DNA of 64,000 bases from a virus: positions 34,579-98,578 of the IMG/VR virus record IMGVR_UViG_3300020202_000063; one strand, given 5' to 3'. A program made the position numbers and the translations under genes. Positions 29,509 through 62,334 of this stretch are shown piece by piece. Positions within the stretch are counted from its first letter, which is position 1. The number at the start of each line of letters is the position of its first letter. The notes under the pieces were generated by a model, which did not search any database, was not told the origin of the DNA, and saw only the letters and a program-made list of their open reading frames with translations.

Positions 29509-29952
29509 TTAGAAATCAATTCGGTTTGAAATCTGCGCGCTCGACATTTGTGGGATTTGCACTTGGCCCAAATAGCGCCGAATCCAATTTTCGAAATGCG
29601 TATGCATGGCCGCAAGCATGTTCGAAAGTTGAGCGGTCGAATAACCGCCGAAATGCGCGCGCCGTTCGCCCCATGTGCTATCAGTCACGAAATCCGAAAA
29701 AATGTACCAAGCACGGTCATCGGGATTAGCGCGACCGTCATTCCAGACGTTGCCAATGCAACCGAAAGTAAGGTGATTAATGGAATAGCGCCGCGCGTAA
29801 AGTTCCATCAATTCGCGAATGGCCCTTTGTGGGTTTTGCGCATCGGAATAGCGCGACATTTCCTGATTCAAAGGCGCGAACGGAAGGTTCCCAAAGCGCC
29901 GCATCGACTCGTGACGTTCTGCCTCAATCTCTTCGTTGGATAGGTTACTCAT
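29509..29952 (-). CDS. Unknown 147-aa protein
   Basis: Helical, Arg/Asn-rich protein (MSNLSNEEIEAERHESMRRF); the second half has SDFVTDSTWGERRAHFGGYS. Not recognised. Its ATG lies 9 nt after the -10 box of the promoter at 29962, so a leaderless mRNA is expected. Confidence 0.7.
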   Translation of the reverse strand: MSNLSNEEIEAERHESMRRFGNLPFAPLNQEMSRYSDAQNPQRAIRELMELYARRYSINHLTFGCIGNVWNDGRANPDDRAWYIFSDFVTDSTWGERRAHFGGYSTAQLSNMLAAMHTHFENWIRRYLGQVQIPQMSSAQISNRIDF

Positions 29953-29961
29953 GGGAACCCC

Positions 29962-29989
29962 ACTATATCACATAATAATCGGAATACAA
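29962..29989 (-). promoter_or_regulatory. Early-type promoter
   Basis: TTGTAT, 16-bp spacer, TATAGT (extended TGA-TATAGT). The -10 ends 9 nt before the ATG of 29509-29952. Confidence 0.75.
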
Positions 29990-30009
29990 TGGGGTATTTC
30001 CCTCAATTG

Positions 30010-30165
30010 TTATGGTTTGTAATCCAATATGCTGCACGAGCCACCGTGACGCTTTACCGAATCGTAACGCGCGAATGCTTCCGTCAACGAATTTGTGTAT
30101 TCGGTTCCTGATATCATCATGCCGCGCTGATGCCGATAGGAATAATGCACGACGTATTTGAACAT
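30010..30165 (-). CDS. Unknown 51-aa protein
   Basis: Basic, Tyr-rich protein starting MFKYVVHYSYRHQRG and ending SCSILDYKP. It lies 20 bp after the preceding stop. The longer frame upstream overlaps that gene and reads unlike protein, so I chose 30165. Confidence 0.6.
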   Translation of the reverse strand: MFKYVVHYSYRHQRGMMISGTEYTNSLTEAFARYDSVKRHGGSCSILDYKP

Positions 30166-30185
30166 GGTAAAAAAAGGATTAGTTT

Positions 30186-30665
30186 TTAATGGTCGCCAGC
30201 GGGACCGGCCCGGTATCCAATCGATTCGATTTTGTAAAGGTCGCCCTGAACATGCGTGATAGTCGATTCGACGGCGCAAAAAAATTGGATTGCGTCTTTT
30301 ATCTTTTCGACTGTTGTGCCAGCAGGCATTTCCGACAATTTCCTATAGCAATAGATTGGCGCTTTCCAATCATCCCGATTGCAAACCGAATCAAAAATTG
30401 GCCTCAATTCCTCGCGCTGTTTTTCCAATTTGTTTTTATAGGAAACGATTTCGATTTCGGGATTGAGCGCATTTTTCAGTTCGCGCATCCGGCTGATAAC
30501 GTCACCAGTCGCAATCCAATCTTTCCGCGACCCATCAGATTCGACGCCCGAAAACTTGGGCGAGTGCAAAAACGCAATAAACAAATCCAATTCGGACTCG
30601 GCATTCTTAAGCGCTTTTGAAAGCGCCGCGACTTCGTTTTCGAGTTGCTTAATATAGTTGCTCAT
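30186..30665 (-). CDS. Unknown 159-aa coiled-coil protein
   Basis: N-terminal coiled coil (residues 1-35), a segment KFSGVESDGSRKDWIATGDV seen in some phage hypothetical proteins, and a helical second half. No catalytic motif. The gene begins 9 nt after a TATAGT -10 box. Confidence 0.72.
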   Translation of the reverse strand: MSNYIKQLENEVAALSKALKNAESELDLFIAFLHSPKFSGVESDGSRKDWIATGDVISRMRELKNALNPEIEIVSYKNKLEKQREELRPIFDSVCNRDDWKAPIYCYRKLSEMPAGTTVEKIKDAIQFFCAVESTITHVQGDLYKIESIGYRAGPAGDH

Positions 30666-30674
30666 GGCGAAAAC

Positions 30675-30703
30675 ACTATATCACAAAGCCGCGAGACTGT
30701 ATA
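30675..30703 (-). promoter_or_regulatory. Early-type promoter
   Basis: TATACA, 17-bp spacer, TATAGT (extended TGA-TATAGT), ending 9 nt before the ATG of 30186-30665. The -35 is the least typical of the set. Confidence 0.6.
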
Positions 30704-30712
30704 TGGGTAGAA

Positions 30713-30919
30713 TTACGTATTGTAAACGGGTTCGAATTTCGTTTTGTCTGGTAGATTTTTCAATGGGCGCAAACCATCGTGAGCGCGCGCATGATTATAA
30801 TCCCAAAGCGCATTTTCCTCTTTTGTTTCAAGTGTGCTTTCACGAGCATTCGTTTTGAATTCGCTCATGTCGCGCGTAGGCGGCACCGTTACTTTCCAAT
30901 ATTTAATTTCGGATTGCAT
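30713..30919 (-). CDS. Unknown 68-aa protein
   Basis: Starts MQSEIKYWKV two bases after the preceding stop; the rest is charged and helical (ALWDYNHARAHDGLRPL). A longer frame overlaps the upstream gene and is rejected. Not recognised. Confidence 0.65.
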   Translation of the reverse strand: MQSEIKYWKVTVPPTRDMSEFKTNARESTLETKEENALWDYNHARAHDGLRPLKNLPDKTKFEPVYNT

Positions 30920-30920
30920 T

Positions 30921-31157
30921 TTAGTCGAGAAATGCGGGAAAGATTTCGCGGTCCGGTTCGCCCGTTTCGGGATAACACATGGCGCGGTCAATCAATTCCT
31001 CTTTTGCCGCTTCAATCTCCACCGGAGTCATCGCCCGATTCGTTTCAAAATTCGAAACAAACGGGATTCCATTTTCGAATGTGACGCGCGCCGAAACGAT
31101 TGCTTCGACAATATTTTCGCGACCGGATTCCAGATAGATTGTTTTGGTGAATTTCAT
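30921..31157 (-). CDS. Unknown 78-aa protein
   Basis: Acidic alpha/beta protein with EAIVSARVTFENGIPFVSNF. First gene of a two-gene unit; its ATG stands exactly 6 nt from the -10 box, predicting an AUG-initiated transcript. Confidence 0.7.
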   Translation of the reverse strand: MKFTKTIYLESGRENIVEAIVSARVTFENGIPFVSNFETNRAMTPVEIEAAKEELIDRAMCYPETGEPDREIFPAFLD

Positions 31158-31163
31158 GGCGGC

Positions 31164-31192
31164 AGAATAACAAAGATTGGAATGGATTACAA
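31164..31192 (-). promoter_or_regulatory. Early-type promoter with inverted repeat
   Basis: TTGTAA, 17-bp spacer, TATTCT, then 6 nt to the ATG at 31157. A perfect 8-bp inverted repeat (AATAGGGT-4 nt-ACCCTATT, 31191-31210) runs into the -35 box. Confidence 0.75.
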
Positions 31193-31205
31193 TAGGGTGT
31201 TGACC

Positions 31206-31352
31206 CTATTTATATGTAATAATGCGCTTTTCTGAGTTGATTCGCGCGCTAAATCCAATCATATTGTCGAAAAACTTGAGCGCGACCCACGCCAGCAGGA
31301 CGCAGATAACGACCCATAAAACGAATTCGTAAAAGGATGGAAATTTGCGCAT
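31206..31352 (-). CDS. Single-span membrane protein, 48 aa
   Basis: MRKFPSFYEF, then a hydrophobic span (VLWVVICVLLAWVALKFF) and a basic tail. An alternative ATG at 31371 lies 9 nt from the -10 box but reads as a less protein-like 40-residue frame. Its stop overlaps the operator-like repeat of the next promoter. Confidence 0.6.
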   Translation of the reverse strand: MRKFPSFYEFVLWVVICVLLAWVALKFFDNMIGFSARINSEKRIITYK

Positions 31353-31380
31353 GGGGAACGATTTGTTTCATGGCGCGACT

Positions 31381-31409
31381 AGAATACAATCTCTCGAATT
31401 GTATTACAA
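31381..31409 (-). promoter_or_regulatory. Early-type promoter
   Basis: TTGTAA, 17-bp spacer, TATTCT. An ATG follows 9 nt after the -10; the membrane-protein ATG is a further 19 bases on. Confidence 0.7.
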
Positions 31410-31422
31410 TAGGGTGAAACCC

Positions 31423-31704
31423 TCAATTTACCAACATATCGACATAAAAACAACGACGATTGAATTCCATTACAGTCGCATCGAACAATGACGCAATCCG
31501 TTCCTGATTTGTCGTTTTCGTTTGAAGATAAACAGTTCCAAAGCCGCGCAGGGCGCTTTCCCGCTTTGACTCATTCGTCATAACGGATTTGTTTCCCATC
31601 GCCTCACGGAAACGCAACAGTTCCTCCATGAAATAACGTTCGGAAAAATCCGTTTCGTTTTGAATTACGCTACTTTGCATTTGGGTTTTGTTCTTGTGCT
31701 CCAT
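31423..31704 (-). CDS. Unknown 93-aa protein
   Basis: Polar helical protein with ETDFSERYFMEELLRFREAM and a Ser/Lys-rich middle. It overlaps the 3' end of the preceding gene by 40 bases and is the last gene of a four-gene unit. Not recognised. Confidence 0.65.
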   Translation of the reverse strand: MEHKNKTQMQSSVIQNETDFSERYFMEELLRFREAMGNKSVMTNESKRESALRGFGTVYLQTKTTNQERIASLFDATVMEFNRRCFYVDMLVN

Positions 31705-31880: not shown

Positions 31881-31885
31881 TTGGT

Positions 31886-32107: not shown

Positions 32108-32442
32108 GGCAGTAATAAAAGTAGATTGTTTTTCTTCTCAATATCCTGCATGAAACGGTGTGTCGCAACATCGCGCGCCAAACGGCGGCGCTCCATTGCG
32201 TTTAGAAGATGCGATGTGGTGGCGCTCGATTCCATTTCGATTTCTGGCTCAGTAATGGAAGGAGCAACGTCGCGAATCTCTTCGTCAACGATATTCGAAT
32301 CGTCAATTCGCGTACCGATGCGCGAAAGAACGATTTGTTTTTCCTTCTTATTTTCGACCGGACTGATGCGAAGCGCTGAAAGGTCTTTGCCTTGCAGCGC
32401 GGCCCAACGATTGCGAATCAGGGTAGAGGTGACATGAATCAT
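32104..32442 (-). CDS. Unknown 112-aa protein
   Basis: Starts MIHVTSTLIRNRWAALQG; acidic centre and a basic helical C-terminus (AMERRRLARDVATHRFMQ). First gene of a four-gene unit; its ATG is 9 nt from the -10 box. The longer frame upstream would start inside the promoter and is rejected. Confidence 0.7.
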   Translation of the reverse strand: MIHVTSTLIRNRWAALQGKDLSALRISPVENKKEKQIVLSRIGTRIDDSNIVDEEIRDVAPSITEPEIEMESSATTSHLLNAMERRRLARDVATHRFMQDIEKKNNLLLLLP

Positions 32443-32451
32443 GGCGTGCGA

Positions 32452-32480
32452 ACAATAACATACCCCATTGTGCAATACAA
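32452..32480 (-). promoter_or_regulatory. Early-type promoter
   Basis: TTGTAT, 17-bp spacer, TATTGT, then 9 nt to the ATG at 32442. Confidence 0.72.
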
Positions 32481-32498
32481 TAGGGTGTTATACTCATT

Positions 32499-32981
32499 TT
32501 ATACCGCAATGCGCGAATTGGGATATTTCGCTTCAATCCAATCTTTCGCCGATTTCAAATCCCAGCCGGTAATGGTGCGGAACTCCTTGATGGCACCAAG
32601 CTTATTTGTGTATGGATTACCAATGCGACTTTCGATATACCGCCTGATATCGTCCGTCGAAATGGAGACTGATTCCAGCGGCATCGGACCGCGCCGAACG
32701 AGAAAGAGCCGCAAGAGTTGATTGGCGCTCGCATCAGGAGAAGATTGCAAACGCAGCCGTTCACACTCGCGCGACATGCCAAGCAAATCCGCCCGCAGCC
32801 CACGCTCAGTCATTTCCAAATCCGAAATACGCTTGAGCAATTTCTGATTGGCTTCTTGCAAAAGTTCAATTGGAACAGATGCGTTAATCGAAACGGTTTC
32901 ACCCGGTCGAATGTTGTAGAAACGGCCAACGATAATCGCGGCTTCCGAAACGGTCAGAATGATGTTGCGCAGGATTTTCAT
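32499..32981 (-). CDS. Protein with ribosomal L7/L12 C-terminal-like domain
   Basis: A 160-residue protein with a hydrophobic N-terminal segment, a coiled coil at about residues 35-80 (LLQEANQKLLKRISDLEM) and a C-terminal GAIKEFRTITGWDLKSAKDW segment that matches the helix pattern of L7/L12 C-terminal domains, which contact translation factors in ribosomes. Whether it touches the host ribosome is inference. This gene has a leader of about 40 nt, unlike most neighbours. Confidence 0.65.
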   Translation of the reverse strand: MKILRNIILTVSEAAIIVGRFYNIRPGETVSINASVPIELLQEANQKLLKRISDLEMTERGLRADLLGMSRECERLRLQSSPDASANQLLRLFLVRRGPMPLESVSISTDDIRRYIESRIGNPYTNKLGAIKEFRTITGWDLKSAKDWIEAKYPNSRIAV

Positions 32982-33023
32982 AAAATCAGTTAGATTTGGT
33001 TAGAATTGAGTGGAAGAGACGAA

Positions 33024-33051
33024 AATATAACAGATTGGCGCAGAATTACAA
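33024..33051 (-). promoter_or_regulatory. Early-type promoter with long leader
   Basis: TTGTAA, 16-bp spacer, TATATT. The ATG at 32981 is 42 nt from the -10, one of few in the set with room for a 5' UTR. Confidence 0.7.
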
Positions 33052-33060
33052 TAGGGTGAA

Positions 33061-33366
33061 TTACTTAATTTGGTCTGGATTGCACACGAGCGCATTGCCC
33101 GCAATCCAATCGGTCAACATGCCGCCCGCATCATGCAAGAGAGCCGTCGCAGTCTTGTTCATGGGAAGATTTTCCAATTTGCCTTCCTCATGAATGACCA
33201 TGATGCGACCATCCTTCAATTCGATTGTTTGGATAAAGCCGCCCACGGCGCTTTGCATTTCTTCCAAAGAAAAATCAGTTCCATTTGCCGGGACGACGCA
33301 GAGTGAAGATTTCTGATTGGGAAAAATCAGATAGGCGGCGGCACCTTGAGCGGATTTGTTTTTCAT
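33061..33366 (-). CDS. DUF3846-like protein
   Basis: A 101-residue protein with QSAVGGFIQTIELKDGRIMV, then GKLENLPMNKTATALLHDAG and a final DWIAGNALVC strand, the pattern of phage DUF3846 domains (function not established). Its ATG stands 7 nt from a -10 box. Confidence 0.75.
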   Translation of the reverse strand: MKNKSAQGAAAYLIFPNQKSSLCVVPANGTDFSLEEMQSAVGGFIQTIELKDGRIMVIHEEGKLENLPMNKTATALLHDAGGMLTDWIAGNALVCNPDQIK

Positions 33367-33373
33367 GATGTCG

Positions 33374-33402
33374 AATATAACAGATAAAAGATTGAAATGG
33401 AA
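33374..33402 (-). promoter_or_regulatory. Early-type promoter, weak -35
   Basis: TTCCAT, 17-bp spacer, TATATT; 7 nt to the ATG at 33366. The flanking AATAAGT/ACCCTATT half-repeat is present although the -35 has drifted. Confidence 0.55.
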
Positions 33403-33415
33403 TAGGGTGAATTAC

Positions 33416-33616
33416 TTATTTTTCGATTGCTCTCCACCAGATTAGACCATGCGTGCGACCATCAAAGCAGCCACCATCGTGATTTTCGCGCTTGGCTTGT
33501 CGGATGGCATCACGTTTAGTGCGCGCATAATATGAATTGAAATAACTCCAGTCGGCAGTGCGCCTACCAAATTGAGTTTTCACCTCCACGTCGAAAGTTT
33601 TTAAATCTGAATCCAT
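33416..33616 (-). CDS. Unknown 66-aa protein
   Basis: Aromatic and basic (RRTADWSYFNSYYARTKRDA). It starts directly after the stop of the preceding gene (0 bp between). Not recognised. Confidence 0.65.
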   Translation of the reverse strand: MDSDLKTFDVEVKTQFGRRTADWSYFNSYYARTKRDAIRQAKRENHDGGCFDGRTHGLIWWRAIEK

Positions 33617-33802
33617 TTAGTAAATGCGCGTGAGACCGTTGTGTGGAATGAATTCGTATTTCTTTTTCCCGTCGAGTGATTCAAGAGTGTAGATATCGGG
33701 CATGCCATCCTTCACCGCGCGCACGCCCACAACCCGCAGTTGCAGGAAGCCAACCTGAACCGTCTGTCCTACGGACCAGTTTTGTTTGGTGCGAGTAATC
33801 AT
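33617..33802 (-). CDS. Unknown 61-aa beta-rich protein
   Basis: QTVQVGFLQLRVVGVRAVK and IYTLESLDGKKKYEFIP suggest a small beta barrel. First gene of a two-gene unit; 6 nt from the -10. Confidence 0.68.
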   Translation of the reverse strand: MITRTKQNWSVGQTVQVGFLQLRVVGVRAVKDGMPDIYTLESLDGKKKYEFIPHNGLTRIY

Positions 33803-33808
33803 AAGAGA

Positions 33809-33837
33809 ACTATAGCAGATGGCCCGTCGCTATGCAA
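33809..33837 (-). promoter_or_regulatory. Early-type promoter
   Basis: TTGCAT, 17-bp spacer, TATAGT (TGC-TATAGT), 6 nt to the ATG at 33802. Confidence 0.72.
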
Positions 33838-33850
33838 TAGGGTAAATACC

Positions 33851-33952
33851 TCAATTACAATGTTTCCACGATTCCCCTCGGGCAATTCTTCTAACCTGAC
33901 TGGCACCAATTCCAAATCTATTTATTAGGTCGCTTACAGAACCCGGCCCACG
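33851..33952 (-). pseudogene. Homing-endonuclease-type HTH remnant
   Basis: A 33-residue open frame with no start codon reads SVSDLINRFGIGASQVRRIA and then RGESWKHCN. That is the DNA-binding helix-turn-helix found at the C-terminus of many HNH/GIY-YIG homing endonucleases. It overlaps the end of 33934-34860 in another frame and ends next to a promoter. Probably the tail of a lost mobile endonuclease. Confidence 0.55.
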
Positions 33953-34860
33953 CTAGGTTTTCTCACTTTGTAAATTATTGCAATCCCTTTTGGTGGAGGA
34001 ATCGGTGGGATGAATTGCCATTGCCCCTTCATATTGACATACCGCTCATCTTTGTAAAAACGGATTGTTCCTGCGCGGCCCAAAAACTGTCTGGTTTTTC
34101 CTGAGCTATCGTGAGCCACCTCAACCTTCTCGCGATAGACGTGCGGCAGATAACGAACCGAATAGATTTTTTGCGTCGCTTTGATGTGTTTTGGGTGAAG
34201 ACCCGCCTCTTTCTTTTCGGCTTTCGTTGTGAGAAGCTTTGGACCTAGCTGTGGCACGCTCGCAAAAGCGAGAACTTTGACTGCCAGCATGGTCATATAC
34301 CGCATCATTTCAGCTTCGTCATTCTCCATTGTCTGGTCGAATTGAGTGAACGCATTCATATGTTCATTGTACTGCCCTTGAACATATTTCGGCCAAATCG
34401 AATCAGGAATTGAGAGAGTGAGTGTTGCGCCGTCCTTTGCATCAGCCGCAAAAACAACCCCAGCATCAGGCACAACCTCGCCATTTTCCATCAGTTGCCC
34501 TTTATCCACCCGTCCCACAAGCATGGCAGGCAAATCCGGGTCGGCAAAGCGAATCTCCATCGCACGCGCGGGAAATACAATCTTGTTTAATTCGCCCACA
34601 ACCTTCGTGATTTCCAAATCCAAAGACACACGATGGTCCACAATCAGGAGAACATTGCCGCTTAAAATCTGATTGGCTTTGATGTAATTGCCAACAGCGG
34701 TCGGCCCCTTTAAGTGTTCAGTGAGTCGTACCGTCTCCATCAAAACACCAATTGGTGCCTCGCGCAAATCAACCCCCTCATAAACCCAATTGATTTCTCG
34801 CCGCATATGCGGAAGATAGGCGGGGCGTTCAACTGAAACAATTTTGACTTTGTTATCCAT
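33934..34860 (-). CDS. Unknown 308-aa protein
   Basis: One of the longer minus-strand genes. Alpha/beta N-terminus, an acidic middle (QFDQTMENDEAEMMRYM) and a basic C-terminus with QWQFIPPIPPPKGIAIIYKV. I recognise no domain. Its ATG is 9 nt from the -10, so the transcript should be near leaderless. Confidence 0.75.
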   Translation of the reverse strand: MDNKVKIVSVERPAYLPHMRREINWVYEGVDLREAPIGVLMETVRLTEHLKGPTAVGNYIKANQILSGNVLLIVDHRVSLDLEITKVVGELNKIVFPARAMEIRFADPDLPAMLVGRVDKGQLMENGEVVPDAGVVFAADAKDGATLTLSIPDSIWPKYVQGQYNEHMNAFTQFDQTMENDEAEMMRYMTMLAVKVLAFASVPQLGPKLLTTKAEKKEAGLHPKHIKATQKIYSVRYLPHVYREKVEVAHDSSGKTRQFLGRAGTIRFYKDERYVNMKGQWQFIPPIPPPKGIAIIYKVRKPSVGRVL

Positions 34861-34869
34861 TACGCGACT

Positions 34870-34898
34870 AGAATAACAGAATCGACGTTATATTACAA
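34870..34898 (-). promoter_or_regulatory. Early-type promoter
   Basis: TTGTAA, 17-bp spacer, TATTCT, 9 nt to the ATG at 34860. A GAGGT/ACCCT partial repeat overlaps the -35. Confidence 0.72.
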
Positions 34899-34923
34899 TA
34901 GGGTGATTACCTCAAAAACAAAA

Positions 34924-34987: not shown

Positions 34988-35464
34988 TTAGCTTGCTGCC
35001 GCGAGTGGTGCCGGGGCGTTTGCCTCGGGCATCGTGGTGACATTGGCAGGCGCAGCAGGTGCTTCCTGCTTTGCCGTGCGAGTGTTGACAAGGCCCGCTT
35101 TCTTCAGCCAATTGTGCAATGTCTGCGGATGGCAACGAAGTTCCGCGATGATTTGTGAACGCTGCTTGGTGCCATTACGAACCGCCTCGATAGCGGCATT
35201 GCGTTCCGCTTCAGAAAACTCCGTGCGCGGGCGCTTGTCGGCAGCGAGTGCGCCAAGCGTGCCCTTTTCGCGTTGGGCAATCAAAGCTCGCACGCCCGCG
35301 AGATTGTCAACGCCGAAAATCTTCGGCAGTTCGTCGATTTTCTTTCCAATCGTTTCATAATGTTCGCGCTCGGTCTTTTCGATTTCGGCGCGAGTCTCTG
35401 TCATTTCACGTTGCAAACGAGCAAGACGCTCGGCGGGGGTCTCTGACTTATTGGTTTTAGACAT
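34988..35464 (-). CDS. Coiled-coil plus helix-turn-helix protein
   Basis: A 158-residue protein: coiled coil (residues 10-50), then a basic helical domain with QRSQIIAELRCHPQTLHNWLKK at about residues 100-122, an HTH, and an Ala/Pro-rich tail. It looks like a DNA-binding regulator or nucleoid-type protein. It shares its layout with 50398-50883; the two may be distant paralogues. Confidence 0.72.
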   Translation of the reverse strand: MSKTNKSETPAERLARLQREMTETRAEIEKTEREHYETIGKKIDELPKIFGVDNLAGVRALIAQREKGTLGALAADKRPRTEFSEAERNAAIEAVRNGTKQRSQIIAELRCHPQTLHNWLKKAGLVNTRTAKQEAPAAPANVTTMPEANAPAPLAAAS

Positions 35465-35508: not shown

Positions 35509-35670
35509 TTATTGTTTCGGATTGTCGAGTATTTTCTTATAGGGACTATTACCTATAAGCTTATTGATGGACCATTCCAAACGACGAAACTGCCAAGCAA
35601 GTGAGTTGCTATTATACTTGCGCTTCTTTGTCGGGACGCTAACACTCATTCTCTTTTTATTTGCGGCCAT
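35509..35670 (-). CDS. Basic 53-aa protein
   Basis: Lys/Arg/Asn-rich (MAANKKRMSVSVPTKKRKYN), then an amphipathic helix (WQFRRLEWSINKLIG). Nucleic-acid binding is possible by charge. The gene contains a perfect CTTATAGG/CCTATAAG inverted repeat. Confidence 0.6.
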   Translation of the reverse strand: MAANKKRMSVSVPTKKRKYNSNSLAWQFRRLEWSINKLIGNSPYKKILDNPKQ

Positions 35671-35709
35671 ATTATTTATGAGTTAAAACGACAAATGTTT
35701 TAAAAAAAT

Positions 35710-35902
35710 CTAGGGGCCGAATCGCACGGCCCTCACTTTTAATTTAGTACGTTCGCCGCTTGGTAGTGTCACACCCTGCGTATCGAACGGGGTTCTCGTC
35801 TCACTTCTTAATTCCTTGCTGCGTCCAGCCCGGTCAGTTCTAGAAACTAATCCCGCTTTGACGTAAAACCCAATTTCACTTTTCGTTTATATCCGGTAGC
35901 AT
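35710..35902 (-). pseudogene. 63-aa basic protein broken by one extra base
   Basis: ATG at 35902 begins MLPDINE; one A too many in a GAAAAG run moves the frame. The following frame continues EIGFYVKAGLVSRTDRAG, ending RTKLKVRAVRFGP. The ATG follows the preceding TAG directly. The terminator at 35714 overlaps its stop. Confidence 0.5.
35714..35732 (-). terminator. Terminator overlapping a stop codon
   Basis: GGGCCG-7 nt-CGGCCC followed by CTAGATTTTTTT on the minus strand. The hairpin covers the last codons of the gene above. Confidence 0.75.
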
Positions 35903-36049: not shown

Positions 36050-36057
36050 AAATTAAT

Positions 36058-36186
36058 TTAGGCGGCTTTCTTTAGTCCGACATAATCGACATACACCTTG
36101 CCGTCACGCTTTCGAGCGGCGCGGCCCTTAAGCTGATGCCGATTCATTCCAGACTGTTTCCGCATTTTCTTACCAGTTGCATTCAT
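36058..36186 (-). CDS. Basic 42-aa protein
   Basis: Lys/Arg-rich (KKMRKQSGMNRHQLKGRAAR) with a beta C-terminus. Promoter at 36209 with a 22-nt leader. Head of a run of very small basic genes. Probably nucleic-acid binding, by composition only. Confidence 0.65.
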   Translation of the reverse strand: MNATGKKMRKQSGMNRHQLKGRAARKRDGKVYVDYVGLKKAA

Positions 36187-36208
36187 GATGTTTTAAGTTG
36201 AGGTTGGA

Positions 36209-36238
36209 ACTATATCAGAAAGCTCATTCGAAATGCAA
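36209..36238 (-). promoter_or_regulatory. Early-type promoter with leader
   Basis: TTGCAT, 18-bp spacer, TATAGT (TGA-TATAGT). Leader of about 15-22 nt to the ATG at 36186. Confidence 0.65.
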
Positions 36239-36247
36239 TACGTACTA

Positions 36248-36496
36248 TTACGTATTTTCTATCTCCGCCCTATACATTTCGATTGAATTGGGAAAGCGGG
36301 TCGCCAGCCAATTGAGACTGGTGCGGTCCGTCATTTCCCAATTGATTTCAGCTAATGGACATGGAGTGGAGTTATTATAGGAAAATGCCGTGCGATAGAT
36401 TTGGATAATCGTTAGTCGCTGTTCGGCACTTAGACCATTATTCCACCAGTTCAGAATATTTTTATTGCGGATGGCACGAGAGAGGGTCTGGGGCAT
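36248..36496 (-). CDS. Unknown 82-aa protein
   Basis: Asn/Trp-rich helical protein (MPQTLSRAIRNKNILNWWNN). The ATG at 36496 was chosen because it is 9 nt from the -10 at 36506; the longer frame starts inside the promoter. Confidence 0.68.
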   Translation of the reverse strand: MPQTLSRAIRNKNILNWWNNGLSAEQRLTIIQIYRTAFSYNNSTPCPLAEINWEMTDRTSLNWLATRFPNSIEMYRAEIENT

Positions 36497-36505
36497 AGGG
36501 TGTGC

Positions 36506-36535
36506 ACTGTAGGGAAATTTCCCATCCCCCGTCAA
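36506..36535 (-). promoter_or_regulatory. Early-type promoter
   Basis: TTGACG, 18-bp spacer, TACAGT, then 9 nt to the ATG at 36496. Confidence 0.65.
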
Positions 36536-36795: not shown

Positions 36796-37100
36796 GACGT
36801 GACTATATCCTCCGGATGAAGTTTGTTATGATTTTCGGCGCTTGTCCTTGTATGTTTCGCCGCATTTAATAGCTGATTTGCCATACTCTCAGCCTCGTCG
36901 GGTGTCATTTCCAAAACCAATTTTTCATCGGGATGCCCCGTGCGATATGCGTCAATCCACATGGAAACACGCATGCGCAATTTGTCTGTTTCTTGACGGG
37001 TCAGCCACGCGCGGCTGATTCCCCCTCCCACCCTGAAACCACCAATACTATGGACGGGCGCATTGGAACGAGTCGGGTCTCGTGATAGTATGAATCTCAT
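36792..37100 (-). CDS. Unknown 102-aa protein
   Basis: Helical, Arg-rich protein with EMTPDEAESMANQLLNAAKH near the end. Heads a two-gene unit; 7 nt from the -10 box. Not recognised. Confidence 0.7.
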   Translation of the reverse strand: MRFILSRDPTRSNAPVHSIGGFRVGGGISRAWLTRQETDKLRMRVSMWIDAYRTGHPDEKLVLEMTPDEAESMANQLLNAAKHTRTSAENHNKLHPEDIVTS

Positions 37101-37107
37101 AAAAAGG

Positions 37108-37136
37108 AGTATACTCGAATGCGGGCGCTATTACAA
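37108..37136 (-). promoter_or_regulatory. Early-type promoter
   Basis: TTGTAA, 17-bp spacer, TATACT, 7 nt to the ATG at 37100. Confidence 0.72.
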
Positions 37137-37970
37137 TAGGGACATTTCCTCAATTCGCTCGCTGCGGATAATCAAATCTTCTATTTCGTCATCAGTATAT
37201 CCACGGTCTTTCTGGAATTCAGCCTTCCAACTGATATCGCCATCACCATCCCGATAGATGGAAAATTCAATCCCTCTATAATGGTTTGCCTTTTCTTCGG
37301 CAGGATTGCGCTTGCAAAAAGTATTCCAAAAGCGAATGAAATTGTTAAGTACCTGATGATTATTGCAGTTATGCGGTACTAGCCTTTGCGCCATCCGAAA
37401 GCCATAGCGGTGCAAGTCTGCAATACGGCGGAAGGTGCAACTCTGCTTATATTCCAATCCAATTTCACAACTTTCTTTTTCGTGTTTACCGGGTTGGAAA
37501 GCGCGAACCCTTTTTGTGTACTCTTCCACCACCCATTCCAATTCGCAGTCGTCAACGGGCGCTTGCCTTGGAACACTGGAAACTAGGCGGTCGCCAAATT
37601 GCGTATATCCATCTTCAATCGCCTCTTGAACAAAACTGATTGTGGTGCCGATTACATCACTTCCATTCAGGTAATCCCTGATTTGCCGATTAATAATCCG
37701 TTCACGAATTCCCAACACGCTATAATAGTACCACATTGCACCCATCGCGGCCATTTCGCCGCCCACATTCATGGCTGCATCACCCCTGAAATACTTATCG
37801 GTATGTTCGTGGGCGTGCTCAAACACATCGTGGAAGATGCCAACCCCATCCCAAAAGGCATTAAACGAATTATGTTCGTTATAGGTTTCCTTGTGAGTCA
37901 AGCCCCATTCACCGTTGGCGTCATCCTGAAAGAAAACCAGATTGACTTTGCGAACTAGGTTTTTTGGCAT
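37131..37970 (-). CDS. Unknown 279-aa protein
   Basis: His-rich middle (HDVFEHAHEHTDKYFRGD at about residues 47-64) suggests possible metal binding, followed by alpha/beta sequence and an acidic C-terminus. It is one of the better conserved-looking proteins of this region but unrecognised. Strong promoter with 6-nt -10 to ATG distance. Confidence 0.72.
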   Translation of the reverse strand: MPKNLVRKVNLVFFQDDANGEWGLTHKETYNEHNSFNAFWDGVGIFHDVFEHAHEHTDKYFRGDAAMNVGGEMAAMGAMWYYYSVLGIRERIINRQIRDYLNGSDVIGTTISFVQEAIEDGYTQFGDRLVSSVPRQAPVDDCELEWVVEEYTKRVRAFQPGKHEKESCEIGLEYKQSCTFRRIADLHRYGFRMAQRLVPHNCNNHQVLNNFIRFWNTFCKRNPAEEKANHYRGIEFSIYRDGDGDISWKAEFQKDRGYTDDEIEDLIIRSERIEEMSLL

Positions 37971-37976
37971 GGCGCG

Positions 37977-38005
37977 ACTATAACATAACGAGTCGCACTA
38001 TACAA
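37977..38005 (-). promoter_or_regulatory. Early-type promoter
   Basis: TTGTAT, 17-bp spacer, TATAGT (TGT-TATAGT), 6 nt to the ATG at 37970. Among the closest to consensus. Confidence 0.78.
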
Positions 38006-38011
38006 TAGGGA

Positions 38012-38212
38012 CTATTCCTTATTTACGGGTAGAACGGTCGCCGTCTTTTCATCCGTATCGATTTCGATATTGACGTATTCGCCATATTCGAAAAATTTTT
38101 CCAACGTCGCCTCCGCTTGTTTCATTTCCTTTTCATTGAGAGGTGAGCATAGTCCGTCACCGTGATAAACAGATTTATCCGGGTCTTTGAATGTGACGAT
38201 GTATTTTGGCAT
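38012..38212 (-). CDS. Unknown 66-aa acidic protein
   Basis: Starts MPKYIVTFKDPDKSVYHGDG, 5 bp after the preceding stop, and ends ATVLPVNKE. Alpha/beta. The longer frame overlaps the upstream gene and is rejected. Confidence 0.68.
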   Translation of the reverse strand: MPKYIVTFKDPDKSVYHGDGLCSPLNEKEMKQAEATLEKFFEYGEYVNIEIDTDEKTATVLPVNKE

Positions 38213-38217: not shown

Positions 38218-38508
38218 TTAAATTTTTTTCCAACCCATCATTGCACATTGATAAGCCGCCGCTTTGACCTCGGGAGCGCCCCAAACCATATCCACGTCAC
38301 CCATTTCGAGGATGATAACAATATCCCCTACCGACATGGAACGAAGATTCTCTTCTCGAATGAATTCGGTCCGGTCAACATGATTGCATTGACGAAAAAC
38401 AAATTCGAGAATATCTTTATCTGATTTGTTTTGCATCTCTTCGGTTAGCGGAAACACAAATAGATTATCCGAACCGAAAGCGAGGTATTGGATGATGACC
38501 TTTTTCAT
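38218..38508 (-). CDS. Unknown 96-aa protein
   Basis: Mixed alpha/beta with VIIQYLAFGSDNLFVFPL at the start. First gene of a two-gene unit; 6 nt from a consensus-like -10. Not recognised. Confidence 0.7.
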   Translation of the reverse strand: MKKVIIQYLAFGSDNLFVFPLTEEMQNKSDKDILEFVFRQCNHVDRTEFIREENLRSMSVGDIVIILEMGDVDMVWGAPEVKAAAYQCAMMGWKKI

Positions 38509-38514
38509 GCCGCT

Positions 38515-38543
38515 ACTATATCAGGTGCGCCATCGCAATACAA
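38515..38543 (-). promoter_or_regulatory. Early-type promoter with inverted repeat
   Basis: TTGTAT, 17-bp spacer, TATAGT (TGA-TATAGT), 6 nt to the ATG at 38508. AATAGG/CCTATT half-sites flank the -35. Confidence 0.78.
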
Positions 38544-38596
38544 TAGGGAGGATTACCTATTTTTAATTGCAGAAAGACTGCATAAGTTATGAACAC

Positions 38597-39770: not shown

Positions 39771-40024
39771 GTTATAAATTCAAACAATTTTGGGCGCGAG
39801 TTGAACTTTGCCACTTGCACCAACTCGCTCCCCGCATCACGAACAATACAACCGCTATTATCGACCTCGGCTGTATCGTCGTTCAGAACGAGATAAAGCA
39901 GATGGGTTTTATCACTACGTGGCACTCGCGGCAATTTGTTCATCGCCTCGACAAATGACACTTTGCTTGATGCCCACTCGCCAGCGGAGACAGCGAGGAA
40001 TGTTTTCTTAATCGGTTTATTCAT
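39767..40024 (-). CDS. Unknown 85-aa protein
   Basis: Starts MNKPIKKTFLAVSAGEWASS; alpha/beta. The ATG at 40024 is 9 nt from the -10; a GTG three codons upstream is possible. Not recognised. Confidence 0.68.
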   Translation of the reverse strand: MNKPIKKTFLAVSAGEWASSKVSFVEAMNKLPRVPRSDKTHLLYLVLNDDTAEVDNSGCIVRDAGSELVQVAKFNSRPKLFEFIT

Positions 40025-40033
40025 GACACCCAC

Positions 40034-40062
40034 GTTATAACATGTGTCGCGCCAGAATACAA
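40034..40062 (-). promoter_or_regulatory. Early-type promoter
   Basis: TTGTAT, 17-bp spacer, TATAAC (TGT-TATAAC), 9 nt to the ATG at 40024. Confidence 0.7.
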
Positions 40063-40080
40063 TAGGGTATATACCTTAAT

Positions 40081-40332: not shown

Positions 40333-40609
40333 GCAACACAGTCGATTTCATTGCCGCGCGAACGTCAAGCAAAATCTGCTTTGCATTCTCGTGCGCATCA
40401 GCATGGCCGCTCATGTATTTTGCCTCGGAAACATACCCTTGAGATTCAAAATTATCCGACAAGCGCTGACTACTGCTGCGCCAAATTTCTAATTGTTTGG
40501 TCGCAGCTTCGATGAACAAATCCACTTCGCTTTTCTGAGGGGTCGGCTGAGAAAGCGCAAGAGATGCAAGCACGCAAAAAACCATGAGGTGGAATCGATT
40601 AGTTTTCAT
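40307..40609 (-). CDS. Secreted or periplasmic 100-aa protein
   Basis: A cleavable signal peptide is likely: MKTNRFHLMVFCVLASLALSQ, residues 1-20, then a helical polar domain. No lipobox. Probably acts in the periplasm or cell envelope; specific role unknown. Confidence 0.7.
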   Translation of the reverse strand: MKTNRFHLMVFCVLASLALSQPTPQKSEVDLFIEAATKQLEIWRSSSQRLSDNFESQGYVSEAKYMSGHADAHENAKQILLDVRAAMKSTVLREQNTITQ

Positions 40610-40617
40610 GCGCGCGA

Positions 40618-40646
40618 GGCTAGTCCATTTGTTTGTGGTTTGTCAA
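40618..40646 (-). promoter_or_regulatory. Early-type promoter, weak -10
   Basis: Consensus TTGACA, 17-bp spacer, CTAGCC (poor -10), 8 nt to the ATG at 40609. An AATAGGT/ACCCTATT repeat runs into the -35 exactly as in the better promoters. Confidence 0.5.
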
Positions 40647-40690
40647 TAGGGTCTTATACCTATTTTTGGGGTCGAAAAAAAGATTGGTTT

Positions 40691-40768: not shown

Positions 40769-41457
40769 TGTTTGGCTATTTCGTTTACTACTCTATGAGC
40801 CGTTCCATGTGCCGGAAATCCAATTACATATTCACGGTTCGCGCGGGCGCAAAGCCCGCAGACAGAACAATTTACATTTTCGCGCACTGACGCTGGGCAA
40901 ATGACAACCCGTTTGCCATTAGGCGTCAAGCAATTTGTTTTCTGTTCGGTCGGAACTATAGCGACCACTGGCGCTATACCAAGTTCCAATAATTTATCGG
41001 CATGGTTCAGGTTATTAGCCGAAAGATTAATAACGAATCCGTTTTTAACCGCCTCTTTTACAGCCTCGCGGTTTGACTTTACAATTGACGCAGAAGCTTG
41101 ACCATTCAATACCGGTTTGTGAGTGTAGCAGATTGCGCGCTTATTCTTATTGGCGGCTGTCAACTCACGCAATTTCTTTCTATCAATCTTGTTATTGTCA
41201 CCTGCCAAATCACCCGCCTGATTGTGACGCCATAGCTGACCGGCGCGAAGTGATTTGATTTTCGACAAAAAACTATTCCATTCCTCGCCCGTTTTCTTTT
41301 GGGTCAGTCTCATCCAGTGGATATTCAGCGCGCCCGAGGCCGCATAACAACCCGATTTCTTTAGGGGGCAAGCGCTGGGGCAAGTTTCTTTTGGTGAGGT
41401 GGATACGGGAATTGGACCCGTCTTTTTATTCCCAGAAACAGGGGTGAATAAAATCAT
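40762..41457 (-). CDS. Cysteine-rich 231-aa protein
   Basis: N-terminal Cys cluster (PKETCPSACPLKKSGCYA at about residues 22-39) and a C-terminal cluster (CPASVRENVNCSVCGLCARA), seven to nine Cys in all, that could hold zinc or an Fe-S cluster. Related proteins are common in phages as uncharacterised families. No catalytic core is recognised. Strong promoter, 6 nt from the -10. Confidence 0.7.
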   Translation of the reverse strand: MILFTPVSGNKKTGPIPVSTSPKETCPSACPLKKSGCYAASGALNIHWMRLTQKKTGEEWNSFLSKIKSLRAGQLWRHNQAGDLAGDNNKIDRKKLRELTAANKNKRAICYTHKPVLNGQASASIVKSNREAVKEAVKNGFVINLSANNLNHADKLLELGIAPVVAIVPTEQKTNCLTPNGKRVVICPASVRENVNCSVCGLCARANREYVIGFPAHGTAHRVVNEIAKQC

Positions 41458-41463
41458 GTCCCT

Positions 41464-41491
41464 ACCATACCATATGAAATCGAAATGTCAA
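41464..41491 (-). promoter_or_regulatory. Early-type promoter
   Basis: TTGACA, 16-bp spacer, TATGGT, 6 nt to the ATG at 41457. Consensus -35; lacks the CCCTATT arm. Confidence 0.7.
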
Positions 41492-41672
41492 GTACCTATC
41501 GGAGAATTTCTTATGGGGAGTAATACCTATTCCGAAAGGCGAAAAATCTGATTGCTTTTTAGCGCAAAAACTGATTGGATTAGCCGCCAGTTGGGGAATT
41601 TTCCCCACCCCGCTCGGGGCGCACGCGTATATTTTGGGACGCGATTTTAAAAAAAAATATTCTAAAAAAATT

Positions 41673-42388: not shown

Positions 42389-42490
42389 ATGATGTGAGTT
42401 GTTAATATTGGGGAATTTTACCCAATTTTTGGTGTTGCGTATTTTGGAGAGTAAGGGCGCAGTGCGGTACGTCACCCCAAATCAAATTAA

Positions 42491-56903: not shown

Positions 56904-57674
56904 TTATTGCGCCACGTCAAGCACTTTCTGATATTCCAATTTCAAATAAGGGAAGTAGCAGCGTAGCAAGAGGTTATTCGCTATCTTCTCTGAGAAAGTA
57001 AAAGTGCGAGTGCGGCTTTCATATGCTGCGACAATTTCTGCATCATATTGCTTATAATCCGCTTCAAGCTGTTCGACCGAATAGCGTTCGGGTGTCGCCT
57101 TGATTTTCATCAGGTAATTATATTCGTCCGCCCCAAAATCACGGCAGTTCACAACATATATTTGATGGCGGAAAAAGTGAATACCGGTCCACAACAATCG
57201 AAGAAGGTGCGTGGCATTGCGATAACTATAACCGTAAGTGTTAAGTGATTCTTTGCGTTTGGAACCCAAGACACCGGCGCGCTCACCTTTTGCAAGACGG
57301 AATTCGCTTTGGGCATAGCCGCGCAATACATTGAACAACTTGCGACTATCGATTAGATTATGCGCTTCCGCCCTAAACAGGTTGAATTCGGGCGCGCACA
57401 ACGTAAATGAATCAGAGGATGCGAATAGCATTTCAAATGCCTCTGTATTACCTTGATGGAGTAAACGCACCCAAGCCGACAATTCCTTATAAACAATATC
57501 CTGCTGAATATTTGGATTTTGTTTACGATATTCCTCGTTCTTGGCTGTACCGATGATATGTTTGGCATCGGTGTTCATATACAAGCCGCGCACATCTATA
57601 TCCGAATTGTGTGTATTCAGATGATATAAGTGCGAGCCGCCCTTAAATTCACAAAGCTTCTTAATATTATCCAT
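56904..57674 (-). CDS. Nucleotidyltransferase of polymerase-beta type
   Basis: A 256-residue protein with the active-site motif GGSHLYHLNTHNSDIDVRG near residue 12: Gly-Ser and the Asp-x-Asp pair of the polymerase-beta fold. Length and layout match predicted nucleotidyltransferases in large phages, which may modify RNA or nucleotides. Its substrate is unknown. One base separates it from the preceding HAD-like gene. Confidence 0.8.
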   Translation of the reverse strand: MDNIKKLCEFKGGSHLYHLNTHNSDIDVRGLYMNTDAKHIIGTAKNEEYRKQNPNIQQDIVYKELSAWVRLLHQGNTEAFEMLFASSDSFTLCAPEFNLFRAEAHNLIDSRKLFNVLRGYAQSEFRLAKGERAGVLGSKRKESLNTYGYSYRNATHLLRLLWTGIHFFRHQIYVVNCRDFGADEYNYLMKIKATPERYSVEQLEADYKQYDAEIVAAYESRTRTFTFSEKIANNLLLRCYFPYLKLEYQKVLDVAQ

Positions 57675-57675
57675 A

Positions 57676-59042: not shown

Positions 59043-59110
59043 AACTCCTTAGACTCTAGTTGGTTTCGTCGTGTTCGAACTTTTTTCTGTCTTAAGTAAT
59101 TCTGAATCCG

Positions 59111-59995
59111 TTACTTGGATTTGACGAATTTACCATTCGTGCCGCGCACGTTATGGAAGCGCTGACCGCTAGGCTTAAGCCCAAACTGCGAGCGCTTAAC
59201 GAGCGGCTGAGATACCGCCGATTGTAGTGTCTTGTACTCGCCCACGAGTCGCATGCGGCAAGCAACCATCTTGGATGATTCGGCGTGAGCCACATTACAC
59301 ACATCCTGCGGGTCAATCTGAGCGATTAGGAGCCGCCCGCGACCAGTGTAAACGTTGTTCTGGTCGAAATCGCCATTCCAATAGTTCTTGTTGGCGACGT
59401 ACAGTCCAACCGTACCACACTCTTGTTCACCTTCACGAATCTCGTTACGAGGATACGTATATTCATACCCCACTCGGTAGATTTGGGTCTTACAATGCTT
59501 GCCATTACGCGTTTCGAAAAAGTGACCAGTTTTGTTGTACGGCGCTCTACCGTCCTTATCTACCAATTTGAATGCGGTAATGAATCCATCCTCAGTAATC
59601 GCAAGATGATTATGTTCGAGGAAGCTAAACAGCTTCGAACGCACGCCCTCGCTAACGTTCTTATACAGACGGTCCAAGAATCGCGCCAATGGCTCGAATG
59701 GCAATCCCTGCTTCAAAAAATCGAGAATGCGCATAGCGATTACACCATGTACTTCGGTGCCGTTATAGGTAACAGCATTATCGTACACACAAACCGCACC
59801 ATGACTGTAGCGCTGAATTGCACCAACCCGGTCCAGCAAATTAAGCAACCCGTTGTAATCACGCTTGCGATACAATTCAATTGCCTGTGGAAAACGGGGG
59901 TCGGACTTGGTAATGCTAAACTCGCGGTCCGCAATAAGAGTTAAAAAGTTCTGCGTGAGAATGACTGGATAGACTGTGGACTTTTTTGTAGACAT
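59111..59995 (-). CDS. rIIB: rIIB-like protein
   Basis: A 294-residue homologue of T4 rIIB: FSITKSDPRFPQAIELYRKR, MRILDFLKQGLPFEPLARFL, FLEHNHLAITEDGFITAFKL and NNVYTGRGRLLIAQIDPQDV are the typical terms. In T4, rIIA and rIIB affect lysis timing and exclusion by lambda rex, though their biochemical role is unresolved. The start MSTKKST at 59995 was chosen. It follows rIIA by 63 bp on the same strand. Confidence 0.85.
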   Translation of the reverse strand: MSTKKSTVYPVILTQNFLTLIADREFSITKSDPRFPQAIELYRKRDYNGLLNLLDRVGAIQRYSHGAVCVYDNAVTYNGTEVHGVIAMRILDFLKQGLPFEPLARFLDRLYKNVSEGVRSKLFSFLEHNHLAITEDGFITAFKLVDKDGRAPYNKTGHFFETRNGKHCKTQIYRVGYEYTYPRNEIREGEQECGTVGLYVANKNYWNGDFDQNNVYTGRGRLLIAQIDPQDVCNVAHAESSKMVACRMRLVGEYKTLQSAVSQPLVKRSQFGLKPSGQRFHNVRGTNGKFVKSK

Positions 59996-60058
59996 AATTT
60001 TCGTAATTTCGGGAGCTAGCGTTTCAGAACATATTACATATGTCAAGGTTTTATTTTA

Positions 60059-62299
60059 TTATGCTGCGATTATCTGGGTTTGTGTAACTGGCGCTGGGCT
60101 AGCAATTTGTGTTGCTCCACGCAGCGCACGCATCTGATTTGCAAGTTCAACTGTTTCGATATAGTCCCGCACTAACGGAATTTCAGTTCCGCTAATGTAA
60201 GAAAACCGTTCAAGCAGCGGATAAGCGGCAACAACCTTTTTCCATTCATCCACCATCGAATACGTTGGCTTGTTTGGTAGCTCCGCGATTTTCGAAGTCA
60301 AACGTTGTAATGCGTTACGAATTTCGCGGTCCTTCTCAGCCTTTTTTGCGGCTAACTGAATCGTCTTTGCCTTAGTAATATAATCGTTTAGAATTGTACC
60401 AGAAAATGTTACGTTATACATTAATTGGTGCTTCAGATATTGTGCCTGTTCCGAATCAACAATATTCTGCGCAGCAACGGGGCTGAATTTTACATTACTA
60501 CAGGCTTCCTCAATATACTTGTCCAATGTAATCCAGTCTGCCGACGCTTTAATTTCATCTAAAACGGGGGGATTTTTACCCGTTAAAGAACTCTTGATTC
60601 CATATACTTTAGGAATCTGCTTAATAAGATTCAACTTTAACAAATATTCAAGGTTTTGTTGAATCCTCTCATTAGAATGTAAATAGGCGTTGGGCGTGAA
60701 CCCGCGAATAGTCAAATAAACGCCACCTTCATCCACGTCGATTTCAGTGGGTTCCCACCAATCCGAATTCTTATCTCGATAAGCATTTGGTTTCTTTGGA
60801 ACAAACTGGAATAACTTCAACCGGTGCTTTTCATTATGGTCACCGGGTGAAATATCGCTTGCGTCGCGCTGGACAACAATCTCACTGGCTTTTTCAAATA
60901 TGCTATCATCGGTGCCATTAATCTTGTGAAACTCCTTACGTGCCTCATCACTCTTGAAACGAATTGCATGATAGTATGAATCACGCATGGCGGGGTTCTT
61001 ATTTCCATCGGTTTTTAAGCGAAACCCGATGCGATACTTTGCGCCGCGACCACCATCCAAATCATTTATAAAGAATTTGTTGTAATTTGTGGCTTCCAAA
61101 GATGGGTTGCTATCGTACTCTTTAACGCGCCAATTACCACGCATATATGATAAACAAAACGATTTAGCCGAAACACCATCAATCCAAATAGTTTTGTTTT
61201 TGTCGGATGGATTTTTGCGCCCACACCACAAATACTCATCTTCAATTGGAATACCTTTCCAGCTAACTGTTGGGGTATCACCTAACACTTTACCGATTTT
61301 ATGTGCCTGCCCGCCATAGCGAAAATACGACTTATAGAGTTTTTTTGCTTCAAGGATATTGGCGCACTTGTCGAAATCCTTTTGAATTACACTCTTTACT
61401 TCTTTTTCGATTTCATCCAATCGAGTCTTAATTGCCTTCACCGTTTTATCGTCATAATTCAATCCCTGACGATTGGTTTGAGGCGTAATTTCACTTGGAC
61501 CAAAGACGAGTGTAATACCCATATCGGATTCGAGAAAATCCAATTGGGTGTTTGTAAGACCGGGAATATCGCGCGGCTCAATCTTGTACCAATAGATACC
61601 ACCAACGGCAACCGGATAGTCCAACGACTTATCGAGCCACCAATTAGTCCCACTGAGGCTCTTATCGATTGCTTGAAATTGAAAGTTTGGAACTCCCTTT
61701 ATAATGGGGCGTGGATTATAATACTTGAACGCGCGGTGGGTTGCCTCAATAAAGGCGGGTATATCTTTTTCTTGGACTGGAACAGTAACTTCAACCCCAT
61801 TTGGTTCTGCCGAATCTTGGGTGTTGACATGTACAATCTCGGGTAGTCCATCTCCATTCATGAAGACCGAATACGAACGCCGCTTGCCATTATCATAACA
61901 GGCGAGGGTATAAGTATCCGAAAGGGCCAGCGCGATTAGCTTGCCAATACCGTAGCCGCCCGCTTGATTCTCATCGGTATCCTTGGTCGAATCGAACGCC
62001 GTGCAATAGCGTTCCATTACAAACTCATGTGACATGCCAATACCGGTATCACGAATCACCAATTGTGGCTCCAATTTGGATGGAAGCCGAACGGTGAACG
62101 GTTCATTGGCTTTTCCCGCCAACTTCATCGAATCAAAACAATTCTGACCCAATTCCTGTAGCGTACCCAAAATCGGGTTAGAATACAGATTCTTCGTCAG
62201 AATTGCAAACAGTTTACCATCGGCCTTGATACCAAAGGCATTCCGCTGCGATTTCTTGATATTGGTTTCGACCGTAACGGGATTCTGATTGATAATCAT
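60059..62299 (-). CDS. rIIA: rIIA-like GHKL ATPase
   Basis: A 746-residue homologue of T4 rIIA. The GHKL ATP-binding parts are clear: N-box ELGQNCFDS near residue 46, G1 box DTGIGM near residue 82, and G2 box GGYGIGK near residue 115. The remainder is the large middle region and a helical C-terminus. It precedes rIIB as in T4-like phages. The promoter at 62306 puts its ATG 6 nt after the -10, so the mRNA should be leaderless. Confidence 0.88.
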   Translation of the reverse strand: MIINQNPVTVETNIKKSQRNAFGIKADGKLFAILTKNLYSNPILGTLQELGQNCFDSMKLAGKANEPFTVRLPSKLEPQLVIRDTGIGMSHEFVMERYCTAFDSTKDTDENQAGGYGIGKLIALALSDTYTLACYDNGKRRSYSVFMNGDGLPEIVHVNTQDSAEPNGVEVTVPVQEKDIPAFIEATHRAFKYYNPRPIIKGVPNFQFQAIDKSLSGTNWWLDKSLDYPVAVGGIYWYKIEPRDIPGLTNTQLDFLESDMGITLVFGPSEITPQTNRQGLNYDDKTVKAIKTRLDEIEKEVKSVIQKDFDKCANILEAKKLYKSYFRYGGQAHKIGKVLGDTPTVSWKGIPIEDEYLWCGRKNPSDKNKTIWIDGVSAKSFCLSYMRGNWRVKEYDSNPSLEATNYNKFFINDLDGGRGAKYRIGFRLKTDGNKNPAMRDSYYHAIRFKSDEARKEFHKINGTDDSIFEKASEIVVQRDASDISPGDHNEKHRLKLFQFVPKKPNAYRDKNSDWWEPTEIDVDEGGVYLTIRGFTPNAYLHSNERIQQNLEYLLKLNLIKQIPKVYGIKSSLTGKNPPVLDEIKASADWITLDKYIEEACSNVKFSPVAAQNIVDSEQAQYLKHQLMYNVTFSGTILNDYITKAKTIQLAAKKAEKDREIRNALQRLTSKIAELPNKPTYSMVDEWKKVVAAYPLLERFSYISGTEIPLVRDYIETVELANQMRALRGATQIASPAPVTQTQIIAA

Positions 62300-62305
62300 G
62301 GCGAA

Positions 62306-62334
62306 ACTGTGGACGCGAAAATTGCATCCGTCAA
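62306..62334 (-). promoter_or_regulatory. Early-type promoter of rIIA
   Basis: TTGACG, 17-bp spacer, CACAGT, 6 nt to the ATG at 62299. It lacks the CCCTATT arm. Confidence 0.65.

Follow-up and report, generated by a model that had tools for sequence, protein, structure and literature searches.

The window analysed here is a stretch of 64,000 nucleotides (nt), bases 34579-98578 of a 98,578-bp record of an uncultivated tailed phage in IMG/VR (IMGVR_UViG_3300020202_000063; the genome is labelled G000). It contains 15 copies of one promoter of about 55 bp, all on the minus strand between 29.9 and 40.7 kb, and 13 of the 15 place an ATG 6, 7 or 9 nt past the -10 hexamer. The best reading of this array, well supported by its sequence, is that it produces mRNAs with predicted leaders of 0-3 nt. 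The whole model, to which we give a probability of about 0.85, is a regulon of short phage genes, each with its own sigma70-type extended -10 promoter, in which transcription would start at the ATG or at most 3 nt before it. The resulting mRNAs would be leaderless or nearly leaderless, and ribosomes would recognise their 5'-terminal AUG, not a Shine-Dalgarno (SD) site. A 20-bp dyad operator, centred at about -43.5 relative to the predicted start and overlapping the -35 box, would tie these promoters to one regulator. This regulator would most likely be a dimeric phage-encoded helix-turn-helix (HTH) protein, the sole candidate seen being the product of the gene starting at 35464. Most structural genes (terminase, gpJ-like tail tip) are located on the plus strand and the right part carries small minus-strand genes; the early timing of the regulon is presumed from its sigma70-like promoters and small non-structural genes. 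Genes were called with a simple in-house caller. No close relatives or near matches of the phage were detected in phage records.

Each promoter is composed of the operator (AATAGGGT-N4-ACCCTATT type) overlapping a TTGTAW -35 box, followed by an extended -10 (TGnTATAGT type). With at most one mismatch, the box CCCTATTGTA is found in 11 minus-strand copies between 29.9 and 40.1 kb, with a TATAGT/TATTCT-type hexamer 17-18 nt later. A weight matrix made of the 30-bp upstream element (operator and box) and the extended -10 was scanned over the whole genome. It recovered 12 sites of 35-44 bits, then the sites at 36243 (24.8 bits) and 40651 (18.5 bits), and below these the noise level of Markov sequences. 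The 15th site (ATG 30665) has a diverged operator, found by an operator-only scan, with the spacing of the other sites. The exact promoter pattern gave 30 single matches in IMG/VR, one per contig, which is about the number expected by chance on a rough estimate. The initial annotation had recognised these -35 and -10 types and overlooked the dyad operator. It had also extended the array from 29952 to 62334; the array is coherent at 29.9-40.7 kb and not up to 62.3 kb, the few promoters further right being different and of TTGAC type. The promoters are listed below (distances are from the end of the -10 to the ATG).

29950..30007, minus strand: operator ATTGAGGGAAATACCCCATT with TTGTAT-16-TATAGT; ATG 29952 at 9 nt
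30663..30721, minus strand: diverged operator AATACGTAATTCTACCCATA with extended -10 TGATATAGT; ATG 30665 at 9 nt; operator-to-ATG spacing equal to that of the other 9-nt sites
31155..31210, minus strand: perfect dyad operator AATAGGGTCAACACCCTATT with TTGTAA-17-TATTCT; ATG 31157 at 6 nt
31369..31427, minus strand: operator with TTGTAA-17-TATTCT; ATG 31371 at 9 nt (open reading frame, ORF, of 40 amino acids)
32440..32498, minus strand: operator with TTGTAT-17-TATTGT; ATG 32442 at 9 nt
32979..33069, minus strand: operator with TTGTAA-16-TATATT; long-leader exception, ATG 32981 at 42 nt, without SD
33364..33420, minus strand: operator with TTCCAT-17-TATATT; ATG 33366 at 7 nt (DUF3846 gene)
33800..33855, minus strand: operator with TTGCAT-17-TATAGT; ATG 33802 at 6 nt
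34858..34916, minus strand: operator with TTGTAA-17-TATTCT; ATG 34860 at 9 nt
36184..36256, minus strand: operator altered in both arms (AATACGTAATAGTACGTATT) with extended -10 TATAGT; ATG 36186 at 22 nt, without SD
36494..36535, minus strand: TTGACG-18-TACAGT promoter without operator; ATG 36496 at 9 nt
37098..37154, minus strand: operator with TTGTAA-17-TATACT; ATG 37100 at 7 nt
37968..38023, minus strand: operator with TTGTAT-17-TATAGT; ATG 37970 at 6 nt
38506..38561, minus strand: operator with TTGTAT-17-TATAGT; ATG 38508 at 6 nt
40022..40080, minus strand: operator with TTGTAT-17-TATAAC; ATG 40024 at 9 nt
40607..40664, minus strand: operator with TTGACA-18-TAGCCT (weak -10), partly read directly; ATG 40609 at 7 nt
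41455..41531, minus strand: operator-like site 41531-41512 (centre -64.5) with TTGACA-16-TATGGT; ATG 41457 at 6 nt (DUF7227 gene)
62297..62334, minus strand: TTGACG-17-CACAGT; ATG 62299 of rIIA (gene 60059-62299, minus strand) at 6 nt

In the regulon, the distance is 6 nt at 38508, 37970, 33802 and 31157, 7 nt at 37100, 33366 and 40609, and 9 nt at 40024, 34860, 32442, 31371, 29952 and 30665; the two remaining promoters stand at 22 nt (36186) and 42 nt (32981). A like geometry is displayed by promoters outside the regulon with a TTGAC-type -35, at 41457 and 62299 (6 nt) and at 36496 (9 nt). The counts given at first, six promoters at exactly 6 nt and seven at exactly 9 nt, were reproduced. Among the long-leader exceptions then proposed, 32981 and 36186 stand, and 50883 has a weaker promoter. 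Given 0.0188 ATGs per position, 12 or more of 14 promoters would have an ATG at 6-9 nt with a probability of 1.8e-12. No comparable peak in -10-to-ATG spacing appears on the plus strand of the array region.

Transcription from sigma70 promoters usually starts 7-8 nt past the -10. An ATG at 6, 7 or 9 nt therefore predicts a 5' leader of 0-3 nt: the sites at 6 and 7 nt would be leaderless and those at 9 nt would carry 2-3 nt. The leaders of the two exceptions would be of about 15 nt (36186) and 35 nt (32981). An SD site cannot fit in 0-3 nt, and the statement that there is no room for a ribosome site is correct to this extent. The missing SD is weak evidence alone and not diagnostic, because the whole phage is SD-poor (SD in 21% of genes, and none in both long leaders). 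The predicted set of leaders (0-3 nt, then about 15 and 35 nt) is consistent with the bimodal leader lengths measured in Lactococcus, none of which lie between 4 and 14 nt (PMC10986495). The difference in 5'-end folding between the leaderless candidates and the other genes is not significant. As a separate observation, the base after the ATG is an A in 13 of the 16 leaderless candidates versus 38 of 86 other genes (Fisher P 0.012).

In the operator, complementarity holds for 78 of 126 arm pairs, where random left arms give 32 +/- 4.7. In the copy at 36243, both arms are altered together (AATACGT...ACGTATT). The candidate for its regulator and a neighbouring palindrome are:

34988..35464, minus strand: protein of 158 amino acids with a coiled coil and an HTH, candidate operator regulator
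35538..35557, minus strand: operator-like palindrome TATAGGTAATAGTCCCTATA upstream of the HTH gene (35464)

The structure model of the candidate displays a long coiled coil and a three-helix HTH bundle (mean pLDDT 74). Outside the promoter block, operator-like sites were also observed at 26484-26503 on the plus strand (ATTAGGTAATCCACCCTATG, upstream of the 26544 ORF) and at 42407-42426 (palindrome ATTGGGTAAAATTCCCCAAT).

The dyad may be an activator site in class II position, in which case the promoters would be middle rather than early and would be switched on by a phage protein. We regard this as a serious possibility, somewhat short of even odds. The operator centre is near the class II activator position and the -35 boxes are weak. 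Moreover, the 41457 promoter, which has a consensus TTGACA, carries its operator-like site exactly 21 bp (two helical turns) further upstream, at -64.5, a class I/class II-like displacement that is suggestive of an activator, a repressor being also possible. Against this, host sigma70 could suffice for the extended -10, a repressor too would suit an operator that overlaps the -35, and there is just one match at -64.5, of moderate strength (16 bits). This alternative bears on whether the regulation is positive or negative, and leaderless mRNAs are compatible with it.

The evidence for a leaderless regulon was extended to relatives reached via the terminase, G001 (144 kb, 54% identity), G005 (219 kb, 41% identity) and fragments. 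Searches for relatives via rIIA and via the early proteins 37970 and 34860 gave none. The promoters observed in G001 and G005 belong to the TTGAC type and lack the CCCTATTG box. In G001, 22 of 41 cases have TTGAC at 33-38 nt upstream of the start, where 4.1 are expected (P 4e-12). In G005, 43 genes have a TAnnnT whose end is 6-7 nt upstream of the start (5.0 expected), and the TTGAC test is positive in 24 of 60 (6.0 expected). The Thermus phage phiYS40, submitted to the same test as positive control, gave 17 against 4.5 expected, with TTGAC in 9 of 21. No start-adjacent peak was observed in the negative controls T4, P23-45 (first 50 kb), PAK_P2 and random IMG/VR contigs. G004, G006, G007 and G008, several of which are short fragments, display no leaderless peak. 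On the genome scale, the start-adjacent -10 excess is strong in G005, is seen in G001 by the -35 test and is regional in G000. Since the geometry is repeated in relatives with unrelated promoters and the controls are negative, it is a property of several members of the group and not of one repeated box. The leaderless promoters of G005 (loci L068-L078) share a TTCAAC element in the spacer (TTGACA-N6-GTTCAAC-N-TAnnnT), which is perhaps a second, unrelated operator.

These data bear on a second alternative, where RNA polymerase starts further upstream, from another promoter or by read-through, so that the genes are leadered or in operons and the ATG-adjacent hexamers are secondary. Several genes are indeed tightly packed, which makes co-transcription possible, and the -35 boxes are mostly weak (TTGTAW). 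However, operator, -35, spacer and extended -10 are kept as a unit at each gene, a strong terminator (34955-34921) precedes at least one member, and the relatives display the like geometry with a consensus TTGACA. We consider this alternative quite improbable.

The annotated ATGs are also favoured as the true starts. The upstream reading frames close within 54 nt for all regulon genes. An internal start with an SD-like motif is found in only 3 of the 16 leaderless candidates, and in 5 of the 16 no alternative ATG, GTG or TTG occurs up to codon 40. The match of the 41457 product to DUF7227 begins at residue 3 (E-value 2e-89) and those to its phage homologues at residues 1-7, and the rIIA product (62299) aligns with its family from residue 1; the ATG starts of these two genes are thus corroborated by family alignments. 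For the 40024 product, the alignment with the G001 homologue starts at residue 5. It is very improbable that the transcripts are leaderless and translated from an internal codon, the annotated ATG being untranslated or minor: a few genes have an in-frame ATG, GTG or TTG within 20-35 codons, but the scarcity of SD-like internal starts or of any alternative, and the DUF7227 and rIIA alignments, argue against it. Almost no SD-led start exists downstream of these ATGs. A chance spacing from the scanning of many weak hexamers is virtually negligible, for although a generic sigma70 scan gives nearly as many matches as shuffled sequence, the specific motif is 20 bits above noise, the ATG spacing has P ~2e-12, and relatives and controls agree. 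The leaderless mRNAs predicted by the initial annotation are upheld by the fixed geometry, the few alternative starts, the positive results in relatives and phiYS40 and the negative controls.

Several points weigh against the leaderless regulon. At the six 9-nt regulon sites, transcription more likely starts 2-3 nt before the ATG, so that these mRNAs would be near-leaderless only; by direct reading, five of these sites have a G at position 7. The genome-wide TAnnnT excess at 6-7 nt in G000 is modest (10 versus 5), because only one region is involved. Some regulon genes are very short ORFs without relatives (40 amino acids) and may not be real. No host was found by genome scans with terminase and glycosyltransferase alignments. 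Concerning the candidate regulator, the HTH Pfam matches of the 35464 product are weak and below the gathering thresholds, and Foldseek with the HTH model gave no significant match.

Other features were observed in the window. A GTGTAA(T/C)TTATA-like motif recurs often at the plus-strand virion genes, and at 15374-19201 on the minus strand; it commonly stands 30-45 nt upstream of the starts and is likely a late promoter distinct from the early array. With this position of the late motif, promoters adjacent to the start appear to characterise the regulon and not every gene. The gene 32499-32981 (minus strand), served by a long-leader regulon promoter, encodes a protein of 160 amino acids with a sub-threshold Pfam match, at its C-terminus, to the C-terminal motif of ribosomal protein L7/L12 (KLGAIKEFRTITGWDLKSAKD); the predicted structure of this protein is of poor quality. 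The region 35670-36058, about 390 bp mostly without assigned gene, contains a strong hairpin with a run of T behind it (35732-35714) and has no Rfam match; it is possibly a small RNA. In the Rfam scan of 28-64 kb, only tRNA was above the gathering threshold. Finally, an RlaP-type RNA repair polymerase (56904-57674, minus strand), a protein with an HAD_SAK RNA-repair domain within 21-63 kb and an R2K ATP-grasp protein (22145-22870, plus strand) were detected; RNA repair against a host tRNA-cleaving defence is a possible role of this set.

If the model is true, a lineage of uncultivated phages expresses its presumed takeover genes via leaderless mRNAs under one operator-controlled switch. The near-identical promoters with predicted leaders of 0, 1, 3, about 15 and about 35 nt would form a clean set on the effect of leader length on translation. 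The geometry would also help in practice to call the starts of genes in phages of this kind, and it may indicate hosts that translate leaderless mRNAs well. A wider proposal, rather unlikely in our view, is a lineage where leaderless expression is the default for host-takeover genes in genomes of 37-59% G+C, each phage having its own operator and an early protein (e.g. the L7/L12-like 32981 product) biasing initiation. Leaderless phage mRNAs are already known (phiYS40, and a few predicted Cluster O promoters); the unreported part is a predicted leaderless regulon of this phage lineage whose genes are jointly controlled through an operator. Because of these precedents, it is a variant of a known phenomenon.

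T4-type early promoters lie tens of nt upstream of the gene, with an SD in the leader. Ordinary SD-led early promoters of this type were rejected, as the T4 control differs in SD use and in -10 position. The start-associated sequences (SAS/ESAS) of Cluster K mycobacteriophages contain AGGAG and are thought to act in translation (PMC3203893). They resemble the present element as a repeated sequence at a fixed short distance from the starts of many small non-structural genes, and about half of them have inverted repeats. An SAS-like identity (GGGATAGGAGCCC element with AGGAG at the ribosome-site position) was rejected, since the leaders lack AGGAG and the element is a promoter. Leaderless genes of bacteria display a TANNNT some 12 nt ahead of the start codon (PMC3160421; for Deinococcus-Thermus, PMC12340547), and their -10 hexamer ends about 6-8 nt before it. 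The array shares with them the missing SD and the -10 position, although its 9-nt sites agree only as near-leaderless ones; those genes are host chromosomal, whereas here phage genes form one regulon with an extended -10 and an operator. In the Thermus phage phiYS40, leaderless middle and late transcripts were reported (Sevostyanova et al. 2007, summarised in PMC3594737), and because of this precedent the initial view that leaderless initiation is rarely the rule for a phage region needs qualifying. In many phiYS40 genes, 6-7 nt separate the -10 hexamer from the start codon, the same statistical signature. The leaderless strategy of this phage also involves a shift of IF2/IF3 levels during infection. 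However, its leaderless genes are middle or late and its host is Thermus, whereas here a presumed early block shares a dyad operator; also unlike phiYS40, the late genes of G000 are SD-poor, with a separate upstream motif at longer spacing. In Cluster O mycobacteriophages (Corndog), the promoters PL1, PR2 and PL2 are predicted to be leaderless and the genome also contains a dyad repeat (PMC4351075). Such promoters are few there and most repeats are located off promoters, whereas here the operator is found at a fixed spacing in each of 15 promoters.

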